Source: Acidobacteriota bacterium (GTDB lineage Bacteria > Acidobacteriota > Terriglobia > Terriglobales > Acidobacteriaceae). From it: DNA of 10,270 nucleotides. A program made the translations under genes and the position numbers. The stretch lies in the NCBI GenBank assembly GCA_021805955.1, contig JAJZDO010000670.1, positions 1-10,270 of the forward strand, in the 5' to 3' direction. Positions 358 through 10,270 of this stretch are shown here, in pieces; within the stretch, counting starts at the first letter, position 1; every line of letters begins with the position of its first letter. The notes below the pieces were generated by a model that worked only from the letters and a program-made list of their open reading frames with translations, was not told the DNA's origin and searched no databases.

Positions 358-1743
358 TCAATCCGCCTTAGAAGGAGCAGGCTGAAGCTCCGTCGCGGGA
401 AGCGGGTTCTGAGTCGGTATAGTTGTCACTTCAATCCGGCTATTCTTCACAAAGACAACATTCTGACCGTGGACCAGCCAGCGTTCATAGACGGAGAGGC
501 CGGCCGCGTAGAAACCGATGCCCGCCGCTAAATTCGGGGAGCCTGCCACGATGCCGACCGCGCGGCCGATGATTCCAAATCCGTTGGATGATACGGCGGC
601 GTTACCGGCGAAGTTTCCGTCCTGATCTAGCGCGCGTCCCGCGAGAAAGGTCAGCACTACGGGGACGATGATACGATTTTGGGGTTTGGACTGCACCTCG
701 CCTTCAGAGTTGATTTGCAGCTGTTGCGATTTGCTTGCATCCGCGCCCGCGAGCGTGCCATGGACATGTTGAGCGGGCGCGCCTGGCAGCTTCAGTTCAC
801 GGAAATCGAAGCGCAGTTTTCCTGCCCGGCCGAAGGATCGCGCGGGCTTGGCCTGGGTGATCGTCCCCACCAATATCGATCCTTCGGGAACCTCCAGAGT
901 ACGGTCTGGCGTGAATATCGGTTCAGCAACCAGCGCTTCAAACGTGTTTCCCTTCTTCTGGTCGGATGAGCTGATCGTCTGCTGAAGATAAGCGCGCAGT
1001 CGCCACGCCGACTTGATGTCCGACTCCTTCTTTGCCTGCGAAGGTGATGTCGATGGCGGCTTGGGCGACACGCTGGACGCTGCGGCAGAATTGCTCTGCG
1101 CATTTCCAGACGCTTCATCTTTCTTGAGAGTGAGCGGTTGCGCCAGCATTGCCGTCCACATCGTTGCCGTTTCGATTCTCTCCGGGTGATATGGAAGTTG
1201 ATGGTAGAGCAGCTGAACCAGCCGGTCTTTTCGTCCTGGGGCTGTCACCAGCGCGAGAGTATCTTTGGCGTGCACCTTGACCTGAGCGAGCTGGCGGGCA
1301 AAGAATGATGGCGATTGCTTGGAGGCAGGCGTGGAAAGATGCAGGACGGGCGCGCCGTCTGTGGCATCGCCGCTGACAATGGGATGGATGGTCCCGTCAG
1401 GGAGTACCAGTTGGTCGAAGCGAACGACCGGAATATGGTAAGGCGTAAAGTCCCCTCCCAGCCGAGCGTGGATGCGTCGGCTGCGGTCGGGTTTGAGCGC
1501 GACAACCCTGCCGCGCACAATGCTGCCCGTCGGAATGGCCAATCGATTCTGGGCGTAGACCGGGTAGAGTAAGCGGCAATCTAAAAGTTTCCCTGTTTTC
1601 ATGGGAACGTGCTTGCCGAGTTGGATTGCGAGCGGAGTCGCCACAGGAACTTGAACGGACGGCTCTTGCGCAACCAGCCCGGACGCAGCCATGATGAACG
1701 ACAGCAAGCCGAGGAATCGTAACAGTGCGCGTGTGTCGCTCAT
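358..1743 (-). CDS. Secreted hypothetical protein with two similar beta-type domains
   Basis: 461 aa with a Sec signal peptide (about residues 1-25, ending SGLVAQ), so it is exported. I do not recognise a named family. Two parts look alike. Residues 48-122 contain NRLAIPTGSIVRGRVVALKP followed by FDQLVLPDG. Residues 266-334 contain RTLEVPEGSILVGTITQAKP followed by FRELKLPGA. This pattern (an 'IP.GS...G.V' strand, then 'L.LPDG') recalls the C-terminal beta-barrel of TrbI/VirB10 proteins, but here it is duplicated and no other conjugation gene is nearby. A Ser/Pro/Lys-rich linker (about 208-242) separates the halves. A Gly/Ala-rich hydrophobic stretch (about 388-418) precedes a short tail. The start has no clear ribosome site, but a promoter-like sequence ends about 15 nt upstream of the ATG. 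Function unknown, probably periplasmic or envelope-associated. Confidence 0.75.
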   Translation of the reverse strand: MSDTRALLRFLGLLSFIMAASGLVAQEPSVQVPVATPLAIQLGKHVPMKTGKLLDCRLLYPVYAQNRLAIPTGSIVRGRVVALKPDRSRRIHARLGGDFTPYHIPVVRFDQLVLPDGTIHPIVSGDATDGAPVLHLSTPASKQSPSFFARQLAQVKVHAKDTLALVTAPGRKDRLVQLLYHQLPYHPERIETATMWTAMLAQPLTLKKDEASGNAQSNSAAASSVSPKPPSTSPSQAKKESDIKSAWRLRAYLQQTISSSDQKKGNTFEALVAEPIFTPDRTLEVPEGSILVGTITQAKPARSFGRAGKLRFDFRELKLPGAPAQHVHGTLAGADASKSQQLQINSEGEVQSKPQNRIIVPVVLTFLAGRALDQDGNFAGNAAVSSNGFGIIGRAVGIVAGSPNLAAGIGFYAAGLSVYERWLVHGQNVVFVKNSRIEVTTIPTQNPLPATELQPAPSKAD

Positions 1744-1757
1744 GCGGGTCTAAAAAG

Positions 1758-1786
1758 ACTGTACCGATTCTTGTCGGGCATGTCAC
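1758..1786 (-). promoter_or_regulatory. Candidate sigma-70 promoter for the 461-aa secreted protein
   Basis: Read on the minus strand, GTGACA (1786-1781; five of six matches to TTGACA) lies 17 nt upstream of TACAGT (1763-1758; four of six to TATAAT). Transcription would begin near 1751, only about 8 nt before the ATG at 1743. This near-leaderless layout agrees with the absence of a Shine-Dalgarno sequence there. It is a consensus match only. Confidence 0.3.
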
Positions 1787-1833
1787 AAATGTGGAAACCA
1801 TACAGACAGCGTTGACGCCGATGCGCTCCGCGT

Positions 1834-2454
1834 TCATGGTTGCACCGTGGCTCGGCTGTCCACTTCGATGGCGACCGTTTTCCCGACACGCAGGATAAAG
1901 GTACTGGGGTCTTTCAATCCCCATTGAACGTAGGGCACAACGAATTGGGTACCTGCGCGGAGTGAATTATCCGTTTGAGGCATCACGTGAATGTGCAATC
2001 GGAGCGGGTGATCTTCGCCATGCAGACGAAAAATTCCATCCACGGCAATCGACTGGTCCTTAGTGAAATCGAAATTGCCTGAAGCGTACGTGGGGCGAAA
2101 GGTGACATCGGGATACCGATCGCTTTCGAGAACGCTCTTCTCCATTCTCTCATCACGCGCCGTGTCCCCGCTTTCACCACTTTTGGCATCGACAACGATC
2201 AGTCCGTCCGCGGCTCCCGTGGCTGGATTCAGATGAATCACTCCGCTCTTGAGAGTAAAGGCGCCATGGGCGGTATGGAGAACGGCCTGCAACGTCCAGT
2301 GAATCGATGTTCTCGCGGAATCAAGAGTTACCGTCACCTCATCGTGCGTGTTATTGGCGGCCAGGGCCGAATCCGACAAAAGGAGCAGGCAGAACAGTAC
2401 GAGACTTGCAGCGGCGGCCTTGCCAATATTCCCGCGATAAAAAACGCTTTGCAT
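1834..2454 (-). CDS. YceI-family periplasmic protein
   Basis: 206 aa. Residues 1-32 are a signal peptide (hydrophobic core VLFCLLLL, cleavage after SDSALA). The mature part is a YceI-like lipocalin-type beta-barrel. It shows the [20 protein letters not shown] opening, then the family hallmark [10 protein letters not shown]...[13 protein letters not shown], and the late V.G.F.LHGE.HP.R motif. YceI proteins are periplasmic and bind long polyisoprenoid or amphiphilic ligands; some are stress-induced. Length is normal for the family. The ATG at 2454 is well supported by AGGAG 5 nt upstream. The next gene on the strand starts 90 nt downstream and has its own promoter candidate. A GAGTCTTAA element (2475-2483) just upstream resembles half of the putative BlaI operator at 5929. 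Confidence 0.9.
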
Positions 2455-2515
2455 CGATTCTCCTCTAGCGTCCTGAGTCTTAAATTCGTTAAAGAAATGA
2501 TTTTCGGTCTTGTAT

Positions 2516-2541
2516 CAGGGCACGACTTCCAGCCTGCCCTG
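2516..2541. repeat. REP-like hairpin
   Basis: CAGGGCA (2516-2522) and TGCCCTG (2535-2541) are perfect 7-bp inverted arms around a 12-nt loop. The right arm continues into GAGCGGAGCCGAAGGGT. Motifs like CCCTTCGGCTCCGCTCAGGG are often seen as dispersed intergenic palindromes in environmental bacterial genomes (recalled, not searched). Only one copy is visible here. Confidence 0.45.
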
Positions 2542-2580
2542 AGCGGAGCCGAAGGGTGCCGTAAATGGAGCAAAACAGAT

Positions 2581-2745
2581 GGGCTTTACAGGCTGCGGAA
2601 AAACTCAATTTCTCGGAAGGGATAAAAAATGGATCGCGCCAGGATGCACCAGGAACGATCCGCGAGGCCTGAGTGATTGTTTTCCATCCCGCAAATTTCT
2701 CCCTTTCGCCATACATTCGGAGTTTTTCCGCAGCCTGTTTAGCCC
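2581..2745. repeat. MITE-like element with 26-bp terminal inverted repeats
   Basis: The sequence at 2581-2606 (beginning GGGCTTTACAGGCTG) and the reverse complement of 2720-2745 (beginning GGGCTAAACAGGCTG) match at 24 of 26 positions, sharing CAGGCTGCGGAAAAACTC. The 113 bp between them encodes nothing recognisable. Length (165 bp), long near-perfect ends and intergenic position fit a miniature inverted-repeat transposable element or another dispersed palindromic repeat. As RNA it could also form one long hairpin just downstream of the oxidoreductase gene. No clear target-site duplication is visible at the edges. Confidence 0.6.
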
Positions 2746-2810
2746 TTGCGTGCTGATGTTCGAATCGCTTCCATAAATCGAATTGTTGAATGAACTTCAG
2801 ACTCAGACCT

Positions 2811-3920
2811 CTAGTAGAAACTTGCCTCAAGAAAACTCCAGCCGATTCGTAGTCCCTGCCGCATCGCAAAACGGTACAGGCTCTCGGCGCCGACATGCAC
2901 GGAAAGAAGCTGCTGAAAGTAGTCCGGATGGGATGACAATGTCTTGATCGCGCGACCTTGTATTTGCGGCCAGCGATCCATCGTCAACATCAGCCAACTC
3001 ATGGCATGGGGCAGCCTCCCAATCCTTTTGTGCGCGCGGTTGTAAAGCTCCAAATCTCCCTGATCGATGGCGTTTGCCAGCGAGACAGCTTGGCGGAACG
3101 ATACCGCGAGACCTTCACCGGTAATAGCGTCGGGCGAACCCGAAGCATCGCCGATCAGAGCAACCGAGCGGTTGGCAACGCGGCGAAGTTTCCTGTTGGC
3201 GGAGATGCCGCCGCGGAGCTGCGACATGGTCGGAATACCTTGAAGTCTGGCGGCAACAGATGGAAAAGCGGCGAGAAAATCTCCGTGTGCGAGCTTGGGA
3301 TTTCTTGTGATGAAGACGACGCACACACTGTCGGCGGCAACAGGAGTGAGATAAACCTGGCCGGGCGGTCCCCAGTGTACCTCCACATACTCACTCCACG
3401 GCGCGATGTCGTAGTGACGGCGGAAACCGAAACGCACGCTCTCTCGCTGGACTTCGCCCAGCCCCGCCCACTTTCGGATGCCTGATGCGTGCCCGTCGGC
3501 ACCGACCAGATATCGAAACGATATCGTCCTTCCATTGACAAGGGCGGAGCGGTTGTCCAGCAACTTGGCTCGACTGCCCCACAGCACCGGAACACCCGCT
3601 TCGCGGGCCCGGTCGGCAATCAGCCCATGCAATTTCGTGCGTCGCACTCCGATGCCGGTACCGTTGGGAAAGTCCGCATGGACCCGATGCGCGGGGTTGT
3701 TGAAGCGGATGCCGCGAAAGCGATGGCCGTGCTCCTCCGTAATGTCCAGGCCGAGTTCGCGCAGGGAAGCGAGGGCATCTGGCATCAGCCCTTCAGCACA
3801 GCCTTTGTCTATCGCCGGCCCCAGAGCTTCGACCACAAGACATTCGATGCCTTTTTGCCGTAACGCAATTGCCGCTGCCAATCCGGCGGGACCACCGCCG
3901 AGAATGAGGACGTCCGTCAT
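2811..3920 (-). CDS. FAD-dependent oxidoreductase/monooxygenase (geranylgeranyl-reductase-like)
   Basis: 369 aa from ATG 3920; an in-frame TTG at 3953 would add 11 residues. ATG is preferred because the protein then opens with MTDVLILGGGPAGLAAAIAL, the Rossmann dinucleotide-binding motif (GGGPAG at 8-13). Neither start has a strong ribosome site. Also visible are GCAEGLMP (40-47), a DG motif in YLVGADGHASGIRKW (D142) and the flavin-binding GD motif in ALIGDASGSPDAITGEGL (G257-D258). This order is that of the p-hydroxybenzoate hydroxylase / geranylgeranyl reductase superfamily. The (I)DK.C.EGLMP block is, from memory, typical of oxidoreductases near lipid or type III polyketide genes. Substrate unknown. 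It lies 76 nt (43 nt with TTG) behind the aminotransferase on the same strand, so co-transcription is likely. Confidence 0.85.
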   Translation of the reverse strand: MTDVLILGGGPAGLAAAIALRQKGIECLVVEALGPAIDKGCAEGLMPDALASLRELGLDITEEHGHRFRGIRFNNPAHRVHADFPNGTGIGVRRTKLHGLIADRAREAGVPVLWGSRAKLLDNRSALVNGRTISFRYLVGADGHASGIRKWAGLGEVQRESVRFGFRRHYDIAPWSEYVEVHWGPPGQVYLTPVAADSVCVVFITRNPKLAHGDFLAAFPSVAARLQGIPTMSQLRGGISANRKLRRVANRSVALIGDASGSPDAITGEGLAVSFRQAVSLANAIDQGDLELYNRAHKRIGRLPHAMSWLMLTMDRWPQIQGRAIKTLSSHPDYFQQLLSVHVGAESLYRFAMRQGLRIGWSFLEASFY

Positions 3921-3996
3921 GTCATTTTTTGGCGTCAAGTTTGCGGAGATCAAACCCCTACTTCCCTTTGTCGGTTTCAGAGCATGGGAATGGCGG

Positions 3997-5382
3997 CTAC
4001 GCGGTTATCGCTCTGCGGCCTAAATTGAGCGCGTCAGACCAGAAGGATGCGGACGAATGCATCGTATCGACAACATCGCGTACGGCAGCGACGCAATCAT
4101 GCATTTGTTGTTCGGAGACTACGAGGGGAGGAGCGATTTTGAGCACCATGAAGTTGTTTCCGCAGATTTGCGTGAGAATGTTCTTTTCTTTGAAAAGCCG
4201 CATCACCAGGATCTGTCCAAACAAAGCAGGATGAATTGCTTTGAATGCCTCGAACGAGAATTTCATCGAAACGCTGCATGGCGCCTGAAATTCGATTCCG
4301 GTGAGCATACCTTCGCCGCGCACCTCCTTGACCATCTCAAAGGAAGCGAGCGCGGCGCGCAGGCGGTCACGCAGTTCGACACCCATCGTGTCGGCTCGCT
4401 CCGCAAGCCGCTCGCGGCTCAGGACCTTCAGCGTGGCCAACCCAGCCCGCATCGCCAGCGCGTTCTCGCTGAAGGTTGAAGTATGGATGAAGGCCCGCCG
4501 CAACGAATGAAAGACAGACTTATAAATTATATCCGTCATCAGAACTGCGCCGATCGGAACCAGGCCTCCGCTCAGTGCGTTGGCTAGAACAATCATGTCC
4601 GGCTGTACATCGTAGCGCTCCGCCGCGAGAAATCTGCCCGTTCGTCCGATGCCGGTCTGCACTTCATCCAGTACGAAGAGCGTACCGTACTTCAGACAGA
4701 GACGCTGCGCGCTGGCGAGATATCCCGCCGGAGGAAGGATGATTCCGGCCTCCGCCTGGATCGGCTCCAGTACTACAGCCGCGACCGTGCGCTCTTTGAG
4801 CAGCTTTTCGAGCTTTGTCAAATCGCCAAACGGCACAGCGTGCGTGCCGTCGAGCATTTGCCCAAAATCCTCGCGCCAAAAATCGTTGCCCATCAGGGAG
4901 AGAGCGCCGCAGGTAAGCCCGTGGAATGCGCCAGAGGCGTATACGATGCCGGGTCGACCTGTGCAGGCGCGTGCAAACTTGATCACCGCCTCAATGGCCT
5001 CACTGCCGGAGCTGCAGAAGAATGTTTTCGAGACTTTGCCGCCAGACTGTTCGCATAATATGGAAGCGAGTTGACCGGCGCTCTCGACTACATTGCTCTG
5101 CAACATCGTTGGCGTCTGAGCGTGCAGCTCAGCCATCAGTTCGGCGACGATATACGGGTGGTTATGGCCGGCGTTATGGACGCAGTAACCGGACAGGCAA
5201 TCCAGAATCACGCGGCCGTCGTCGGTATACAGCTCAGCGCCGCTGGAACGCGTGTAGCGGACGTTCATGCCAAGCACATCGAGCAGTTTGACCCAGATCG
5301 GATTGACGCGTTGGCTGTATAGCCGCTGGCCATTCAACTCAACCGGGTCAAGGTGAATGCCAGAGAGTCCCGAATGTGGCAC
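3997..5382 (-). CDS. Class-III PLP aminotransferase homologue lacking the catalytic lysine
   Basis: 461 aa, full length for fold-type I class-III aminotransferases (ornithine / acetylornithine / GABA type). Family motifs are in order: LSGYCVHNAGHNHP (63-76), phosphate-binding SSGSEA (124-129), aromatic FHG (153-155), EPIQAEAG (206-213), and DEVQTGIGRTG (239-249) with D239 for the pyridine nitrogen. The segment that should read LAK/GKALSGG reads LANALSGG: residue 268, the Schiff-base lysine position, is Asn (AAC at 4579-4581). The D239-to-268 spacing of 29 equals D263-to-K292 of human ornithine aminotransferase, so the alignment is firm. The rest of the gene is intact, so this is either a recent inactivating change, a sequencing error, or a pseudo-enzyme using PLP differently. 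The N-terminal NP.WVKLLDVLGMNVRY...G block resembles aminotransferases placed near hopanoid genes (recalled). Start is GTG; AAGGGG lies about 12 nt upstream. Confidence 0.88.
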   Translation of the reverse strand: MPHSGLSGIHLDPVELNGQRLYSQRVNPIWVKLLDVLGMNVRYTRSSGAELYTDDGRVILDCLSGYCVHNAGHNHPYIVAELMAELHAQTPTMLQSNVVESAGQLASILCEQSGGKVSKTFFCSSGSEAIEAVIKFARACTGRPGIVYASGAFHGLTCGALSLMGNDFWREDFGQMLDGTHAVPFGDLTKLEKLLKERTVAAVVLEPIQAEAGIILPPAGYLASAQRLCLKYGTLFVLDEVQTGIGRTGRFLAAERYDVQPDMIVLANALSGGLVPIGAVLMTDIIYKSVFHSLRRAFIHTSTFSENALAMRAGLATLKVLSRERLAERADTMGVELRDRLRAALASFEMVKEVRGEGMLTGIEFQAPCSVSMKFSFEAFKAIHPALFGQILVMRLFKEKNILTQICGNNFMVLKIAPPLVVSEQQMHDCVAAVRDVVDTMHSSASFWSDALNLGRRAITA

Positions 5383-5384
5383 GA

Positions 5385-5510
5385 TCAGTCACCCCTTCTA
5401 GCGTGTATCCATTGAGTGTTGCCAGAAAGCTTCATCAAGGTTTTCATTCGTCTCTCAAAATGGCGCCGAGGGGAATCGTAAGTATTTAAGACATAGAAAA
5501 TCTTCAACAT
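5385..5510 (-). CDS. Possible 41-aa basic small protein, overlapping the preceding stop (TAATG)
   Basis: A short frame starts with ATG at 5510, sharing one base with the TAA of the 35-aa membrane peptide (TAATG), and ends with TGA 2 nt before the GTG of the aminotransferase. The peptide starts MLKIFYVLNTYDSPRRHFER and is rich in Arg/Lys, with no recognised domain. The tight stop/start joints are what translational coupling looks like and are its main support. Against it: no own ribosome site, AT-leaning third codon positions unlike the neighbouring enzymes, and an imperfect copy of the putative repressor palindrome inside (5473-5494). That would instead make the stretch a promoter region. Confidence 0.27.
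   Translation of the reverse strand: MLKIFYVLNTYDSPRRHFERRMKTLMKLSGNTQWIHARRGD
5473..5494. promoter_or_regulatory. Imperfect copy of the putative BlaI-type operator
   Basis: TTAAGACAT (5486-5494) is identical to the right arm of the palindrome at 5929-5950, and the identity extends to TTAAGACATAG. At the same 4-nt spacing the left side reads GAATCGTAA, five of nine matches to the perfect arm ATGTCTTAA. It lies about 90 nt upstream of the aminotransferase start. If bound by the divergent repressor it would put the aminotransferase/oxidoreductase pair in that regulon. Confidence 0.35.
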
Positions 5511-5617
5511 TAGCGGGCACATAGAAAAAATCCACCGATCAGAAGAAGCCCAAGCAAGGCAACCACTGCAACGGTGTAGAAAAGGTACGACACCGGAATA
5601 TCGCCATCGTCAACCAT
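5510..5617 (-). CDS. 35-aa single-span membrane peptide
   Basis: A 35-codon frame too short for usual gene calling. Start ATG at 5617 has GGAG 6 nt upstream. The peptide opens MVDDGDIPVSYLFY, then a hydrophobic segment of about 20 residues (VAVVALLGLLLIGGFFL), ending CAR. An acidic N-terminus, one transmembrane helix and a short C-terminal Cys-Ala-Arg are typical of small membrane proteins that modulate or anchor a partner. It heads a possible minus-strand operon ahead of the 41-aa frame, the aminotransferase and the oxidoreductase. Function unknown. It could be a chance hydrophobic frame, but the ribosome site and TAATG joint raise its odds. Confidence 0.45.
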   Translation of the reverse strand: MVDDGDIPVSYLFYTVAVVALLGLLLIGGFFLCAR

Positions 5618-5928
5618 GAGAAACTCCAAACCCAAAGCAGTCTGCGGGAACTGCGCGGAAAAATATTGTCCCGATCTCGGCACGTCTTCTTTTTACAGAC
5701 GTGGCGTATGAAGGCATCCTGAATATTTGTAGGCGGGAAATCCCGGCGGAACGGCTCCATGGAACAGCGATATCGCGAATCTTCTGCCGCACTCCGTATA
5801 CTCGTATCTGGCGGCCTTTCCGTATACAAGGGTTTGCGGAGCGAGTTGTCGTTCTTCGCGCATGTTTGGCTGTTACTGCAGTCTGTTTGGCCGCATCCGA
5901 TTCTTTCCAAAGTGCGGCGCGCCATCTA
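5618..5928. other. Shared intergenic region between divergent units
   Basis: About 310 bp with no convincing gene on either strand. The minus frame 5539-5925 and plus frame 5701-5937 have no domain and unlikely composition. It must carry the promoter of the minus-strand small-ORF/aminotransferase unit. Visible elements are a 7-bp stem-loop (5681-5703) and two copies of CCGTATAC (5794-5801 and 5820-5827) 26 bp apart, each containing the palindrome GTATAC. Confidence 0.6.
5681..5703. repeat. Stem-loop in the leader of the minus-strand unit
   Basis: CACGTCT (5681-5687) and AGACGTG (5697-5703) are perfect 7-bp inverted arms with a 9-nt loop, about 65 nt upstream of the 35-aa peptide start. It could be an operator or an RNA hairpin. 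No U-run follows on either strand at the position needed for an intrinsic terminator. Confidence 0.4.
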
Positions 5929-5950
5929 ATGTCTTAACGTATTAAGACAT
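5929..5950. promoter_or_regulatory. Perfect palindrome, likely operator of the BlaI-type repressor
   Basis: ATGTCTTAA (5929-5937) and TTAAGACAT (5942-5950) are perfect 9-bp inverted arms around CGTA. BlaI/MecI/CopY repressors bind as dimers to such dyads in their own promoter. A possible -10 box TCTAAT (5925-5930) overlaps the left arm, so bound repressor would block initiation; no good -35 is evident. The repressor gene begins 51 nt (ATG 6001) or 105 nt (ATG 6055) downstream. The arm recurs at 5486-5494, and a related TTAAGACTC is at 5979-5987. Confidence 0.6.
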
Positions 5951-6054
5951 AGCAAGTCAAATGAACACCTGAAAACACTTAAGACTCCGTCCCTCTTTTC
6001 ATGAGAGACTGCGCTCATTACAATTTGATACAGACGCCGGAAGGTGTGAGGCAG

Positions 6055-6486
6055 ATGCCAGGGAAACGATTGAAAGAATCACGAGAAAGACAACTCCCGA
6101 CCGCAAGCGAGCTTAGGTTGCTGCAGATCCTTTGGGAAGGCGGCGAAGCCACGGTTGAGGATGTCGTCAATGCGCACGTCCCGCGGGATCGGCCCAATTA
6201 CAAGACCACCCAGACGTTGCTGCGCATCATGGAGCAGAAGGGGTTCATCGCGCACGAAAGTCGGGGACGGGTCTTCGTCTTTAAACCTCTAATCTCACGC
6301 AAGACAATCGACCAGCAATCCGTACAGGCGCTACTCTCGCGGAACTTTGGCGGCTCCGCAACCGGGCTGTTCCTCAACTTGCTGGAGGCGGCAACCGTCA
6401 GGGAAAAGGACCTGGATGAGTTGGAGTCCCAGATCCGGGAGTATCGTAAAAAGAACGAGCCGTCGAGCGGACGTAACCGGAACTAG
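6055..6486 (+). CDS. BlaI/MecI/CopY-family transcriptional repressor
   Basis: 143 aa from ATG 6055, chosen because GAGG lies 3 nt upstream and the length is near the family's usual 120-145. An upstream in-frame ATG at 6001 (161 aa) has no ribosome site. The winged-helix DNA-binding domain is clear: PTASELRLLQILWEGGEATV (15-34), recognition-helix region YKTTQTLLRIMEQKGFI (49-65), then the wing ESRGRVFVFKP. The C-terminal helices (about 80-135) form the dimerisation part. In Staphylococcus BlaI, BlaR1-dependent cleavage occurs at an Asn-Phe bond (recalled); the corresponding stretch here reads FLNLLE, so Asn is kept but Phe is not. It represses until the partner protease, encoded 72 nt downstream on the same strand, removes it. 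The palindrome at 5929-5950 is the probable binding site. Confidence 0.92.
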   Translation: MPGKRLKESRERQLPTASELRLLQILWEGGEATVEDVVNAHVPRDRPNYKTTQTLLRIMEQKGFIAHESRGRVFVFKPLISRKTIDQQSVQALLSRNFGGSATGLFLNLLEAATVREKDLDELESQIREYRKKNEPSSGRNRN

Positions 6487-6558
6487 AGCGCGGCGCTTCT
6501 CGTCTCGTGGATGGCGGAGGCAACGCAAAGCGTCAGCAGGCCAGAAATCGGAGGTGTC

Positions 6559-7998
6559 ATGCGTCCAGAGACTCAGCTAGCGATCATGGCAGCATTCACC
6601 GGATTTCTACTCAAGACGTCCCTGGGTTTCTGTATCTGTTGGGCAATGAGCAAAATTGTGTCCTTCCCTCGAAGACGGTTTCTGATTTGGTTCGGTTTCC
6701 TCATCAGCGCGGGATGCTATTGGCTATGGCTGGCGGCAGCTCTTGTGCCCCAAGGATCGCCGCCTATCCCCTTGGAGGTACCCGCGGCTTTGGCCATGAC
6801 AGCACCGGTCGGCGAGTGGCAAGTCCAGCGCTCCTGGGAGTTTCCCATCTCGATCGTCTTACGGGGTTTGGCAGCACTGTATTTCATCGTATTGGGATAC
6901 TTCTTCGTCGCGTATATCAAAAAGCATCTTCACCTGCGATGGATACTTCGCTTTACCTATACGGCGCCCGCTGCGATCGAGAACATATTCCGGCCAATCG
7001 CGGAGAGTTTGGATGCCGGCAATGTGCGGTTGCTGATGCTCTCGGGGATTCATTCTCCCGCAACCTTCGGTTGGATCAGGCCCACCATTTTGTTGCCGCC
7101 GTTTTGCCTGGAACAGAACGAGAGCGAGCTAAGAGACATCTTCCGCCATGAATTGCAGCATGTTCAACGCCGAGATTTCGTCTTTAACGGCATCGCCTCG
7201 CTCTGTCGCGCGCTATTGTTCTTTCATCCGGCTGTTTGGTATGCCATGCGCAGGCTCGAATTGGAAAGTGAACTTGCCTGCGATCTGGCGGTCGTCGGCG
7301 ATTCTCCTGACAGGCGCGCCACCTATGCCGAATGTCTGGTTCGCTTTGCGAGGCTGCATGTAACTCAAGGGCCCACGCCATGGAATCTGGATTTCGCGGG
7401 TTCGTCGGTTCAACTCAAAGTGCGGGTTCGCTCGATCCTGACGGAAACCGGAAAAACCCCTGGCTGGTTGCTGGGTTTGCGTGCGACTCTAGGATTGCTA
7501 GTCTGCGCTGGATTTTTGGGCGTCGTGCCATCGCTCTTCGTCGTGCTTTCCTATGAGCAGCCGCGGATTGCGCAGCCGGAAAAACCCCAATCGCTCACTA
7601 CCCACGCCGGTGTTCCTCCGCGGAGGAAACGCACCGACACGGTTCGATTGCATGGGCAGGCTCTGGGAACGCGTCGCGTATTTTCTTCCTCGCCCTCAAC
7701 CGTCTCAATTTCTCCTCCGGTTGAGGTTGCTGTGGATGCAACACCAATTGTGGCGCGCAATTCCGACCCGCTCCTGTCCAGCGAGCCGCAGCCGACGCTG
7801 AAGCTGCGGAGCGATCTGGGTGGAACTGCAGCGTCGCACCCTGCCCGAGCCACAGTCATCCTTTTGTCCAGTCAATCTTCTTCTCATCCAGGAAACTCGA
7901 TCATCACGAAGAGACGCTCGGTCGCGTCGGCAATCACAGCGGCGGCAAGCGAAGCCGTCCGCATCGCTTCTCACGGCAGCGTCCGAGGCGACCATTGA
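6559..7998 (+). CDS. M56 (BlaR1-type) membrane metallopeptidase without sensor domain
   Basis: 479 aa from ATG 6559, chosen for GGAGG 4 nt upstream; an in-frame ATG at 6511 adds 16 residues without a ribosome site. Hydrophobic segments near 6-30, 41-65, 97-120, 210-228 and 302-332 are probable membrane helices. The cytoplasm-facing zinc-protease core shows HELQH (197-201), FHPAVW (222-227) and the glutamate of ELACD (E238) as third ligand, all intact. In classical BlaR1 a penicillin-binding sensor of about 250 residues follows the last helix. Here there are only about 145 Ser/Thr/Pro/Arg-rich residues (335-479) with no SxxK-type transpeptidase motifs visible. The protein should still cleave the neighbouring BlaI-type repressor, but the signal sensed is unknown. 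It forms an operon with the repressor. Confidence 0.9.
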   Translation: MRPETQLAIMAAFTGFLLKTSLGFCICWAMSKIVSFPRRRFLIWFGFLISAGCYWLWLAAALVPQGSPPIPLEVPAALAMTAPVGEWQVQRSWEFPISIVLRGLAALYFIVLGYFFVAYIKKHLHLRWILRFTYTAPAAIENIFRPIAESLDAGNVRLLMLSGIHSPATFGWIRPTILLPPFCLEQNESELRDIFRHELQHVQRRDFVFNGIASLCRALLFFHPAVWYAMRRLELESELACDLAVVGDSPDRRATYAECLVRFARLHVTQGPTPWNLDFAGSSVQLKVRVRSILTETGKTPGWLLGLRATLGLLVCAGFLGVVPSLFVVLSYEQPRIAQPEKPQSLTTHAGVPPRRKRTDTVRLHGQALGTRRVFSSSPSTVSISPPVEVAVDATPIVARNSDPLLSSEPQPTLKLRSDLGGTAASHPARATVILLSSQSSSHPGNSIITKRRSVASAITAAASEAVRIASHGSVRGDH

Positions 7999-8101
7999 GG
8001 CCACTGCTCGTCTCCATCGTGTGGCGGGGTACGCGGACGGAACAGCGTTAGTCAGAGCATTTTCACTATTACTTATGAACTCTCGAAGTTCAGGTACTAT
8101 C

Positions 8102-8126
8102 GTGAGCGCTACGTGAACCACGGGTT
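8102..8126. repeat. Candidate terminal inverted repeat of the IS66 remnant
   Basis: GTGAGCGCTACGTGAACC begins at 8102, 27 bp from the transposase stop. IS66-group ends typically begin GTAAGCG; this matches six of seven. It would mark the 3' end of the element. The other end is lost, so it cannot be paired. Confidence 0.35.
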
Positions 8127-8500
8127 CTACGCAGTGGGGACAGCGGGGTTCTCCGGGTTCCTCAGCCGTGCGGCCTGAGTAAGCTTCCACTGGTCTGGCA
8201 GCCATGCGGATAGCTCGCTCATGCGTGCCGAGGTCAGGTTGGCCAGCAGCTGCGTGAGATAGAGTTGCGGGTCCACATCGTGTCGCCGTTCTGCCACCGC
8301 GCGGATTGCCCACGAAAAAACTGTTCTTGCGATTGAGCACGACGCGCTTTATCTCGCGCTCGCTGATGTTGTTGTCGATGGCCACCGCGCCGTCCGAGCA
8401 GAACACGTTCAGTTCCGTCCATTGGCCCAGGGCGGAGTGGATCGCCTCGGCCGTAGATTTTTTGGGCAGCAACTGCTCCTTCCACTCGAAAAGTTCCACA
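8127..8500 (-). pseudogene. IS66-family transposase (TnpC), C-terminal remnant with internal deletion and frameshift
   Basis: Only the last part of an IS66 transposase remains. From about 8497 down, one frame reads LFEWKEQLLPKKSTAEAI, then IDNNISEREIKRVVLNRKNS and FFVGNPRGGR. This is the conserved IS66 DDE C-terminal block (IDNN..ER...R.....RKN..F.G...GG). Near 8286-8292 the frame switches: the continuation RRHDVDPQLYLTQLLANLTS and WLPDQWK lies in another frame ending at TAG 8127-8129. About a dozen residues normally present after GGR (the A.L.SL..TC part) are missing, so an out-of-frame deletion joined the two parts. The N-terminal two thirds are absent, and the remnant abuts a glycosyltransferase relic at about 8500. 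Non-functional. Confidence 0.8.
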
Positions 8501-8958
8501 GTTCTTCGATGACGTGTGAATAGCCAGATTCATGCACCCATTCGACTTGGGAGCTGAGATATTCAGCCGGCGGATTGTCCCGAGCCATTTCCATATACGC
8601 GCTGATTGCGCCGGGCAGAAACTCATCATCCGCACCGAGAAAGCATATCCAATCTCCTTCGCGCTTCGGTTAGGCCCTTATTCCATGCATCATAAACTCC
8701 GTTGTCAGGTTCGCTCGCCCAATACTCGACTCTGTCGTCATACCGGCGCAGTATGTCGACCGTTTGATCAGTCGATCCGCCATCCAGCACAATGTGTTCA
8801 ATGCCGGGATAATCCTGCTGCAAAACGCTTTCCAGGTAGCCCGCGATGTATTTTTCTCCGTTGTATATGGCTGTAATCGCAGAAACGGAAGTTTGCTTGG
8901 CACAGTCTCCTCGCTTGCGGAGTCCGCCGTCAAGGCGTTGGATTGCATCCTGTTGCAT
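8500..8958 (-). pseudogene. Family-2 glycosyltransferase, frameshifted and 3'-truncated
   Basis: Starts at ATG 8958 with AAGGAG 7 nt upstream. The first frame reads VSAITAIYNGEKYIAGYLES, then HIVLDGGSTDQTVDILRRYD and SEPDNGVYDAWNKGLTEAR. This is the GT-A nucleotide-sugar binding fold of GT2 enzymes that transfer sugars during surface polysaccharide synthesis. At about 8655-8664 the frame breaks (one extra base in a CGAAGGAG context). The expected continuation GDWICFLGADDEFLPGAISA, with the metal-site-like ADD, follows in the next frame to about HESGYSHVIEELW, where the IS66 remnant begins. About 150 of the usual 240-300 residues survive. It lies divergent from a polysaccharide export gene, so it is probably a dead member of that cluster. 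Confidence 0.8.
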
Positions 8959-9254
8959 TCCATGGCTCCTTCATGGATTGTACCGTTGTCCGGCAGACGG
9001 ACCGCTTTCCAACCGCTTGAACCCACGACGCCTCCGCCGCAGATACAGACGCAGTCCTCCTGCGGCTCCATGGAAATGGAGAGTTGGAAGGCACGATATC
9101 GCTTTGTCGTGCTATCGTCAGATACCAGAAGGTCTCCGCGAGCGCTCTGCGTGTTGTCGCATCCGCCTGCCGACAACACGGGAAAACGTGTGCTTTTTCA
9201 ACCATGTGAATGATTTGGGCCAGCCCAGCATTTACACTACTAGGGTCAACTCAA
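8959..9254. other. Divergent intergenic region upstream of the export gene
   Basis: Nearly 300 bp with no convincing gene; open frames on both strands lack domains. It contains two dyads: a 10-bp-arm stem-loop (9150-9180) and a weaker one, GCACGA (9091-9096) with TCGTGC (9107-9112). It would hold promoters for the glycosyltransferase relic (minus) and the export protein (plus). No clear -35/-10 pair was found. Confidence 0.55.
9150..9180. repeat. 10-bp-arm stem-loop upstream of the polysaccharide export gene
   Basis: CGTGTTGTCG (9150-9159) and CGACAACACG (9171-9180) are perfect inverted arms around an 11-nt loop, 74 bp before the export gene start. It could be an operator dyad or a leader hairpin. 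A short T-run (CTTTTTC) comes only about 12 nt later, too far for a standard intrinsic terminator. Confidence 0.5.
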
Positions 9255-10270
9255 ATGCTACGCAGATTTCTTCCCCTTTTCGCCGCGATGTTGTGTATGG
9301 GAACGATGGCGGCGAGCGCCCAGCTCATGGGTGGAAGCTCGACTTCGCAAACGACCGACTGTTCGAGCCCCGCGAGCGCGTTTTCGCCGGAGTGTACGGG
9401 CACATCCGCCAATCCCTATGCGACCGGGCAACAATACAGCACGGGACAAGGCGCGTATGGAACGGCAGGCCAGCCGCAGCAGCCTTCGGCCATCGGCGGC
9501 AACGGCATTCATCAAAATGTTCCGACATACGTCGATCAGTTCCCATATGGGAACCAGCTTACGGGGGCCTATCCCAATCCATACAATCCTTATGCGAACT
9601 TGCGGCAGGAACAGCCCCTCACGGAATTTCAGCGGGTAGTAGCTGGCTCCGTGGGGGCCGTGTTGCCCATCTTCGGTGCGAACCTCTTTTCCAGCAACGC
9701 GGCTCAGTTCGCGCCCATCGATCGCACTCCTGTTACCTCCGACTATGTCGTAGGTCCGGGCGATCAACTGTTGGTCCGCGTATGGGGCCAGGTCAACTTC
9801 AATATTCATGCGACCGTCGATCGCGCAGGCGACGTGTACATTCCGCAGGTCGGCAACGTCGAGGTCGCGGGCCTGCATTTCCAGCAGCTCAATGACTATC
9901 TGAAGGACCAGCTTGGCCGCGTGTTTCGCAACTTCGACCTGAGCGTCAACATGGGCCAGTTGCGGTCCATCCAGATATACGTGGTCGGGAATGCGCGGCA
10001 GCCGGGAAGCTATACCGTCAGCTCGCTCAGCACGCTGGTGAACGCGCTGTTTTCCTCCGGAGGTCCCTCCGAACAAGGATCGATGCGGCGGATTGAATTG
10101 AGGCGTGGCGGGAAGGTTGTGACGACATTCGATCTCTACGATCTTTTGATCGATGGCGACAAATCGCACGATGCGCCGCTGTTGCCGGGCGATGTCATTT
10201 ACATTCCCGCAGTGGGACCGCAAGTTGCGATCGCGGGCAGCGTCCATGTTCCAGCGATCTATGAGTTGAA
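9255..10270 (+). CDS. Polysaccharide export outer-membrane protein (Wza-like), 5' part
   Basis: 338 codons visible; the gene runs off the right edge. Residues 1-22 are a Sec signal peptide (MLRRFLPLFAAMLCMGTMAA, cleavage near SAQ). There is no canonical lipobox, unlike lipoprotein Wza. Residues about 27-125 are a Gly/Gln/Pro/Tyr/Asn-rich, probably disordered stretch. A poly-export domain follows (about 160-236) with SDYVVGPGDQLLVRVWGQ and VDRAGDVYIPQVGNVEVAG, typical of Pfam Poly_export (PF02563). Then comes a first SLBB domain (about 238-320: IYVVGNARQPGSYTVSSLST and LLPGDVIYIP). PQVAIAGSVHVPAIYEL begins a second. Such proteins form the periplasmic/outer-membrane channel through which exopolysaccharide leaves the cell. 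The start has only a weak AGGG about 10 nt upstream, but the signal peptide fits it well. Confidence 0.9.
   Translation, partial: MLRRFLPLFAAMLCMGTMAASAQLMGGSSTSQTTDCSSPASAFSPECTGTSANPYATGQQYSTGQGAYGTAGQPQQPSAIGGNGIHQNVPTYVDQFPYGNQLTGAYPNPYNPYANLRQEQPLTEFQRVVAGSVGAVLPIFGANLFSSNAAQFAPIDRTPVTSDYVVGPGDQLLVRVWGQVNFNIHATVDRAGDVYIPQVGNVEVAGLHFQQLNDYLKDQLGRVFRNFDLSVNMGQLRSIQIYVVGNARQPGSYTVSSLSTLVNALFSSGGPSEQGSMRRIELRRGGKVVTTFDLYDLLIDGDKSHDAPLLPGDVIYIPAVGPQVAIAGSVHVPAIYEL

Follow-up and report, generated by a model that had tools for sequence, protein, structure and literature searches.

The closest described relative of the protein studied here is the C-terminal aminotransferase domain of PigE (4ppm) from prodigiosin MAP biosynthesis, which, according to the available part of PMC8341465, catalyses the amination of a ketoaldehyde, for which it probably uses ornithine or arginine, and is preceded by an N-terminal thioester reductase domain. 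The putrescine aminotransferase YgjG (4uox, 5h7d) is a further relative. In a related omega-transaminase, the catalytic lysine both holds PLP and moves a proton (PMC6502798, in the part available), and the same functional lysine has been substituted in the engineered AspAT variants K258A and K258C, of which K258A is described as catalytically dead and as rescued by small amines (PMC12018205, in the part available). A PLP-enzyme relative that is also devoid of the PLP-binding lysine is LCB1/SPTLC1 of serine palmitoyltransferase, an established subunit of a eukaryotic heterodimer (PMC3794620, in the part available).

The window, that is, the whole stretch of 10,270 nucleotides analysed here, which comes from a soil acidobacterium, encodes a class III aminotransferase (AMT; Table 1) in which positions 4579-4581, GTT on the forward strand and AAC on the reverse strand, correspond to residue 268 of the ORF. 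AMT matched PF00202 with 289.2 bits (cut-off, 30.5) and covered positions 10-402 of the 403 in the profile, with Asn268 standing where this family has its Schiff-base lysine. Using phmmer, Asn268 was aligned onto the lysine of PigE and of the putrescine aminotransferase constructs 5h7d and 5x3f, and Asp239, in the DEVQTG motif, was found 29 residues before it in a gap-free alignment. In human ornithine aminotransferase, D263 and K292 are also separated by 29 residues. On these alignments, misalignment is excluded as the cause of the Asn at 268, which bears out the first-pass annotation: it had read the reverse-strand codon as an Asn replacing the PLP lysine and had considered misalignment unlikely from the spacing to Asp239. 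Residues D239, S125, S127, H154, E206, Q242, and T303 of AMT were all at consensus; we take them to have the PLP-site roles of their counterparts, with Asp239 presumably being the partner of N1, the ring nitrogen of PLP, as in the family. The Asn of AMT is natural, whereas K258A and K258C are laboratory mutants of another aminotransferase.

Table 1. Position of the aminotransferase gene, its relevant codons and repeats, and its neighbours in the window
Feature	Position	Strand	Evidence
Class III aminotransferase (AMT), PigE-like, 461 aa, GTG start	3997..5382	-	ORF call; PF00202, 289.2 bits; phmmer; fold match
Codon 268, where the PLP lysine is expected: AAC (Asn) in the window, AAG in sister L009	4579..4581	-	Sequence; phmmer; homologue columns
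Codon 239, Asp; identical in 253/253 listed homologues	4666..4668	-	Coordinates computed from codon number
Direct repeat GAAGGT (6 bp), copy 1; intact in the window, likely deletion end in P0081	4424..4429	-	Tail-frame match
Direct repeat GAAGGT, copy 2, 115 bp later in the gene than copy 1; a 115-bp loss would explain the P0081 frameshift	4309..4314	-	Tail-frame match
Downstream neighbour of AMT: FAD-dependent oxidoreductase, with weak family matches of the geranylgeranyl-reductase/UbiH type	2811..3953	-	Profile matches
YceI-domain protein, third gene in the AMT-FAD-YceI order	1834..2454	-	Pfam; locus comparison
461-aa protein without Pfam/NCBIfam match (E<=0.001); sister L009 has it in the same order	358..1743	-	Profile searches

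PigE was the best match both by sequence (292 bits) and by structure, since a predicted model of AMT (AlphaFold; pLDDT 82.9, pTM 0.85), used solely for fold matching, gave PigE as top match (TM 0.85), followed by the YgjG constructs. Both proteins share the class III fold and the same motifs, but PigE has the lysine and the N-terminal thioester reductase domain (PMC8341465, in the part available), and AMT has neither. AMT scored 404.8 bits against the 850 set for the PigE equivalog NF053554, its best stretch covering profile positions 380-738 of 837. YgjG aligned along most of its length, with the window Asn falling on the lysine of 5h7d that AMT is missing, and the scores of AMT against YgjG-type NCBIfam models were below cut-off (293.4 vs 612 for NF008570; 260.8 vs 658.65 for TIGR03372).

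The closest orthologues (P0002, P0003, P0004, P0005, and the sister locus L009, which is 90% identical to AMT at the amino acid level and has the codon AAG) all contain Lys, the result that the first-pass annotation had said would speak for a lone recent mutation or an assembly error. The clade it had proposed to look for, with a conserved Asn and the same neighbours, was not found beyond a single lineage comprising the window, P0001, and P0081, in which the neighbours were readable in the window only. A first search gave Lys in 114, Asn in four, Arg in one, and Glu in one among the best 120 of 7623 matched homologues; two further searches, with the best 120 of each, contributed 13 and 120 new proteins, to a total of 253 listed homologues. 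Lys was present in 247 of these 253, including all 120 of the third search. It was also present at all genome loci checked, 40/40 in a first set and 75/75 in a second one that shares nine loci with the first and includes three relatives that are only 39-40% identical, several loci being one contig counted twice. Among the 253 proteins, S125, S127, H154, E206, D239, Q242, and T303 were invariant, and G126 and F153 varied solely in P0085/P0087. At the genome loci, S127 was Ala in 8/75, and the other checked PLP-site residues were invariant where covered.

In a tree of 134 rows, the seven rows devoid of Lys (window included) required four label changes, also when well-supported branches alone were considered. 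These rows correspond to the window lineage (N), P0085/P0087 (N), P0077 (R), and P0091 (E). P0085/P0087 adjoin the Lys-bearing P0065, and P0077 and P0091 form a three-row clade with the Lys-bearing P0090, the window lineage being placed elsewhere. Since in this three-row clade a loss followed by a regain costs the same as two losses, the floor is three losses. According to the tree, the lysine has been lost independently in at least three lineages, probably in four. The largest group consisting entirely of Lys-less rows was the window lineage, with three rows, and the others were scattered among Lys rows. P0085, P0087, P0077, and P0091 look alike at first sight; the idea that they form a single Lys-less clade was discarded, as they split apart on the tree. 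The second Asn lineage, P0085/P0087, has two more changes, F153Y and, in the SGSE motif, G126D, and is thus further gone than the window protein.

P0001 and P0081, two database representatives of the window lineage whose clusters may include the window's own contig, both have Asn268 and group with the window with a support of 99. Relative to the window, P0001 shows E336G and has its start read as M, and P0081 shows I108M and G145D within its first 320 residues, followed by a frameshift. A single-base sequencing or assembly error at codon 268 would be in keeping with the Asn of this lineage being seen only in the window and these two representatives. Both deviate from the window at other sites and yet have Asn, which makes an assembly slip unlikely, and overall we give the error explanation hardly any credence. 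D145 of P0081 is the state found in the sister P0002; P0081 therefore probably branched before G145 arose, and Asn268 is probably older than the P0081 split. P0081 parallels the window protein for 320 residues and then continues in another frame, 33 of its 34 tail residues being those of the +1 frame of the window gene. A 115-bp deletion between the two GAAGGT repeats would explain this frameshift, which is known from the database protein alone and could be an assembly artefact. An in-frame deletion of 114 bp was also considered and was dropped for the 115-bp one, which matches those 33 tail residues.

In the nearest genome, G001, contig C34 corresponds to window positions 5227-10270 (98.95%) and starts at 5227, inside AMT, and contig C251 corresponds to positions 122-442, with sequence unlike the window on both sides. 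The rest (443-5226) gave short repeat matches only. Since G001 covers AMT only from position 5227 on, it is uninformative on residue 268; its missing stretch may be due to differences between strains or to a gap in the assembly. Elsewhere in the window, positions 7705-8499 and 8626-8958 (both on the reverse strand) contain an IS66 transposase remnant, which matches only profile positions 220-283 of 284, and next to it a family 2 glycosyltransferase that is cut short (profile 1-78 of 168). These are leftovers of an old insertion, close to a gene for polysaccharide export (9210 onward).

Comparison of 152 near-invariant columns revealed that AMT departs at only one of them, the lysine itself; these columns were defined without the window and the Lys-less rows, so K268 is fully conserved in them by construction. 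This agrees with the earlier remark that the full length and the other motifs are kept. At the same columns there were eight departures in P0085, five in P0091, and four in P0077, and two, three, three, and none in the Lys-bearing P0002, P0003, P0090, and P0004, respectively. The dN/dS of AMT against L009 (0.235 by YN00) fell inside the range of its five neighbours, 0.177-0.293 (FAD 0.177, YceI 0.247, unnamed protein 0.247, BlaI 0.181, and BlaR1 0.293); using NG86, the values were 0.182 for AMT and 0.121, 0.140, 0.201, 0.118, and 0.246 for the neighbours in the same order. After dropping sites at which P0002 and P0003 differ, 20 derived residues were assigned to the window branch and 19 to the sister branch, with six unresolved. 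Changes on the window branch were somewhat less conservative than on the sister branch (mean BLOSUM 0.00 vs 0.68) and affected more variable columns (entropy 2.04 vs 1.68). These comparisons give no clear sign so far of relaxed constraint on AMT. The ordinary dN/dS and the single departing column suggest that normal constraint has acted on AMT during most of the time since its lineage separated, and that the loss of the lysine is probably young.

The kept motifs and the ordinary dN/dS fit a young mutation as well as they fit selection, and the constraint data do not separate a young neutral change from a young selected one. Selection for a folded but dead protein would account for that dN/dS, for the lysine being the sole change among the 152 columns, and for the four points on the tree at which N, N, R, and E have replaced the lysine within a mostly preserved PLP site, and it would have a precedent in LCB1 (PMC3794620, in the part available). 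We consider it unlikely because the losses lie near the tips, with Lys rows close by and no large Lys-less clade in the sample, an argument that is qualified by P0077 and P0091 sharing a three-row clade with one Lys row. In addition, the P0081 allele of the window lineage is truncated, and no match that could be a close active paralogue serving as partner was found at E<=1e-80 in G001, although this genome is 85% complete and is devoid of this stretch. A stable Lys-less clade of the LCB1/SPTLC1 type was not recovered, given the four label changes and the scattered rows; unlike that subunit, AMT shows a recent loss, in one lineage, and has no known partner.

The distribution of the changes over the PLP site was evaluated with six events (four at K268, plus G126D and F153Y of P0085/P0087) over 11 columns that were hand-picked after the data had been seen, giving a binomial P of 0.0009 for one site and 0.01 after multiplying by 11. 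When one K268 event was removed (that of the window, or one of P0077/P0091), three of five events remained at this position, with P values of 0.0065 and 0.07. That the lysine in particular was hit in three or four lineages is suggestive only. Such lysine-focused losses with a largely fixed PLP site are more focused than random decay predicts. A bolder proposal would be that selection in Acidobacteriaceae repeatedly removes only the PLP lysine (N, N, R, E) and keeps the folded protein as a partner that binds PLP/PMP or holds a substrate for the FAD-YceI module; we would then be looking at the very beginning of a convergent path that leads from enzyme to pseudo-enzyme. We regard this as a long shot, and the lysine focus in three or four lineages is the one thing that keeps it alive.

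The FAD gene was found with at least 64% amino acid identity in six of the ten genomes of the genus (G003, G005, G007, G008, G009, and G010), and G002 and G006 gave matches of 41-43% only. AMT was detected in only one of these six, G005, and was not found in the other five at E<=1e-80 or by inspection of their loci. Directly after the FAD gene, G008 and G010 have the BlaI region, and G003, G007, and G009 have other sequence. In the family, AMT had a patchy distribution and was present in 69/398 genomes (E<=1e-100), three of them at 39-40% identity only, and the FAD protein gave a match in 166/398 (E<=1e-60), many of these matches being 40-50% identical, so that they need not be orthologues. 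AMT was directly followed by FAD at 11 of the 40 genome loci (10 distinct, as L001 and L009 are one contig), all with Lys, and this order reaches well outside the genus. It is therefore more likely that AMT was lost from the congeners than that it was never gained, although its absence could in principle be a non-gain. Since the same order occurs elsewhere with an intact Lys, the FAD neighbour is not special to the Asn, and nothing was found in support of the earlier suggestion that the AMT and FAD proteins may do unusual chemistry as a pair.

Among the recurring neighbours in 41 sets (the 40 loci and the window), YceI came up 22 times, FAD 21 times, and a type III polyketide synthase 12 times; these counts are similarity clusters of crude ORF calls in which one synthase member was checked against Pfam and confirmed (PF02797, PF00195). 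In the synthase cluster, 9/12 members were about full length and 3/12 were short reverse-strand ORFs. Matches to the synthase (57-61% to the AMT-linked one) were present in six of the ten genus genomes, and no AMT was found near them within the 2.3-3.4 kb stretches examined. Five of these six genomes are without AMT, so the presence of the synthase does not explain the loss of the lysine. As to the remaining parts of the locus, the YceI and FAD genes are separated by about 340 bp of dispersed repeats (window positions 2469-2807), which include inverted arms of 26 nt (2581-2606 and 2720-2745). Many copies of these repeats occur in G001 and other congeners, whereas L009 has none at this site, its flanks being joined there. 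The unnamed 461-aa protein is conserved after YceI in L009, with a partial match at the DNA level in G007, G008, G009, and G010. A BlaI-type repressor (6001-6486) and a BlaR1/M56-type sensor (6511-7998), both on the forward strand, form a pair that also adjoins the AMT or FAD gene in L009 and G008; in G010 this applies to the repressor.

An altered but live chemistry, with PLP or PMP being used with another base or a free amine replacing the lysine, would be in keeping with the intact H154, D239, Q242, and T303. The PMP-dependent sugar dehydratase ColD uses a histidine in place of the lysine. Asn is, however, a poor base, the N, R, and E of the relatives reveal no common replacement residue, and no lysine has been gained in AMT relative to P0002. 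Even taking into account that small amines replace the lysine in AspAT K258A (PMC12018205, in the part available), we judge such chemistry to be very improbable.

The best fit to these results is that AMT is a recently inactivated, dispensable accessory enzyme, an explanation to which we assign a probability of about three in four. The intact gene would code for a class III aminotransferase resembling PigE and would belong to a small accessory operon together with the FAD oxidoreductase and YceI genes. Since PigE is the best match and a type III polyketide synthase lies near some acidobacterial AMT loci, the intact enzyme would probably aminate a lipid- or polyketide-derived carbonyl. A single AAG-to-AAC change would have removed the lysine on which both the Schiff base with PLP and the proton relay depend. 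Folding should be unaffected in the resultant protein, and PLP or PMP may still be bound non-covalently, but the expected turnover is extremely slow or nil: having lost the lysine and gained no other, and given the AspAT precedent, it is not expected to transaminate at a useful rate. "Dead" need not mean zero possible turnover, if the rescue of AspAT K258A by small amines is a guide (PMC12018205, in the part available). From the comparison of alleles and congeners we infer an early, strain-variable loss of the locus, in which the lysine would have gone first, followed by a frameshift in another allele and by the absence of the whole gene in congeners, AMT thus appearing to be dispensable in the genus. 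The first-pass annotation had left two explanations side by side: the very recent single-base loss is better supported, by the Lys of the orthologues, the frameshift of P0081, and the five congeners without the gene, and a selected non-transaminase role is less likely.

If AMT is indeed a recently inactivated accessory enzyme, the window would offer a clean snapshot of such an enzyme, silenced by a one-base change but otherwise intact in appearance, and proteins annotated as aminotransferases from PF00202 matches may be dead. If the repeated loss of only the lysine were selected, these lineages would constitute a natural series for asking with what frequency the death of the catalyst comes before the loss of a gene, or takes its place.
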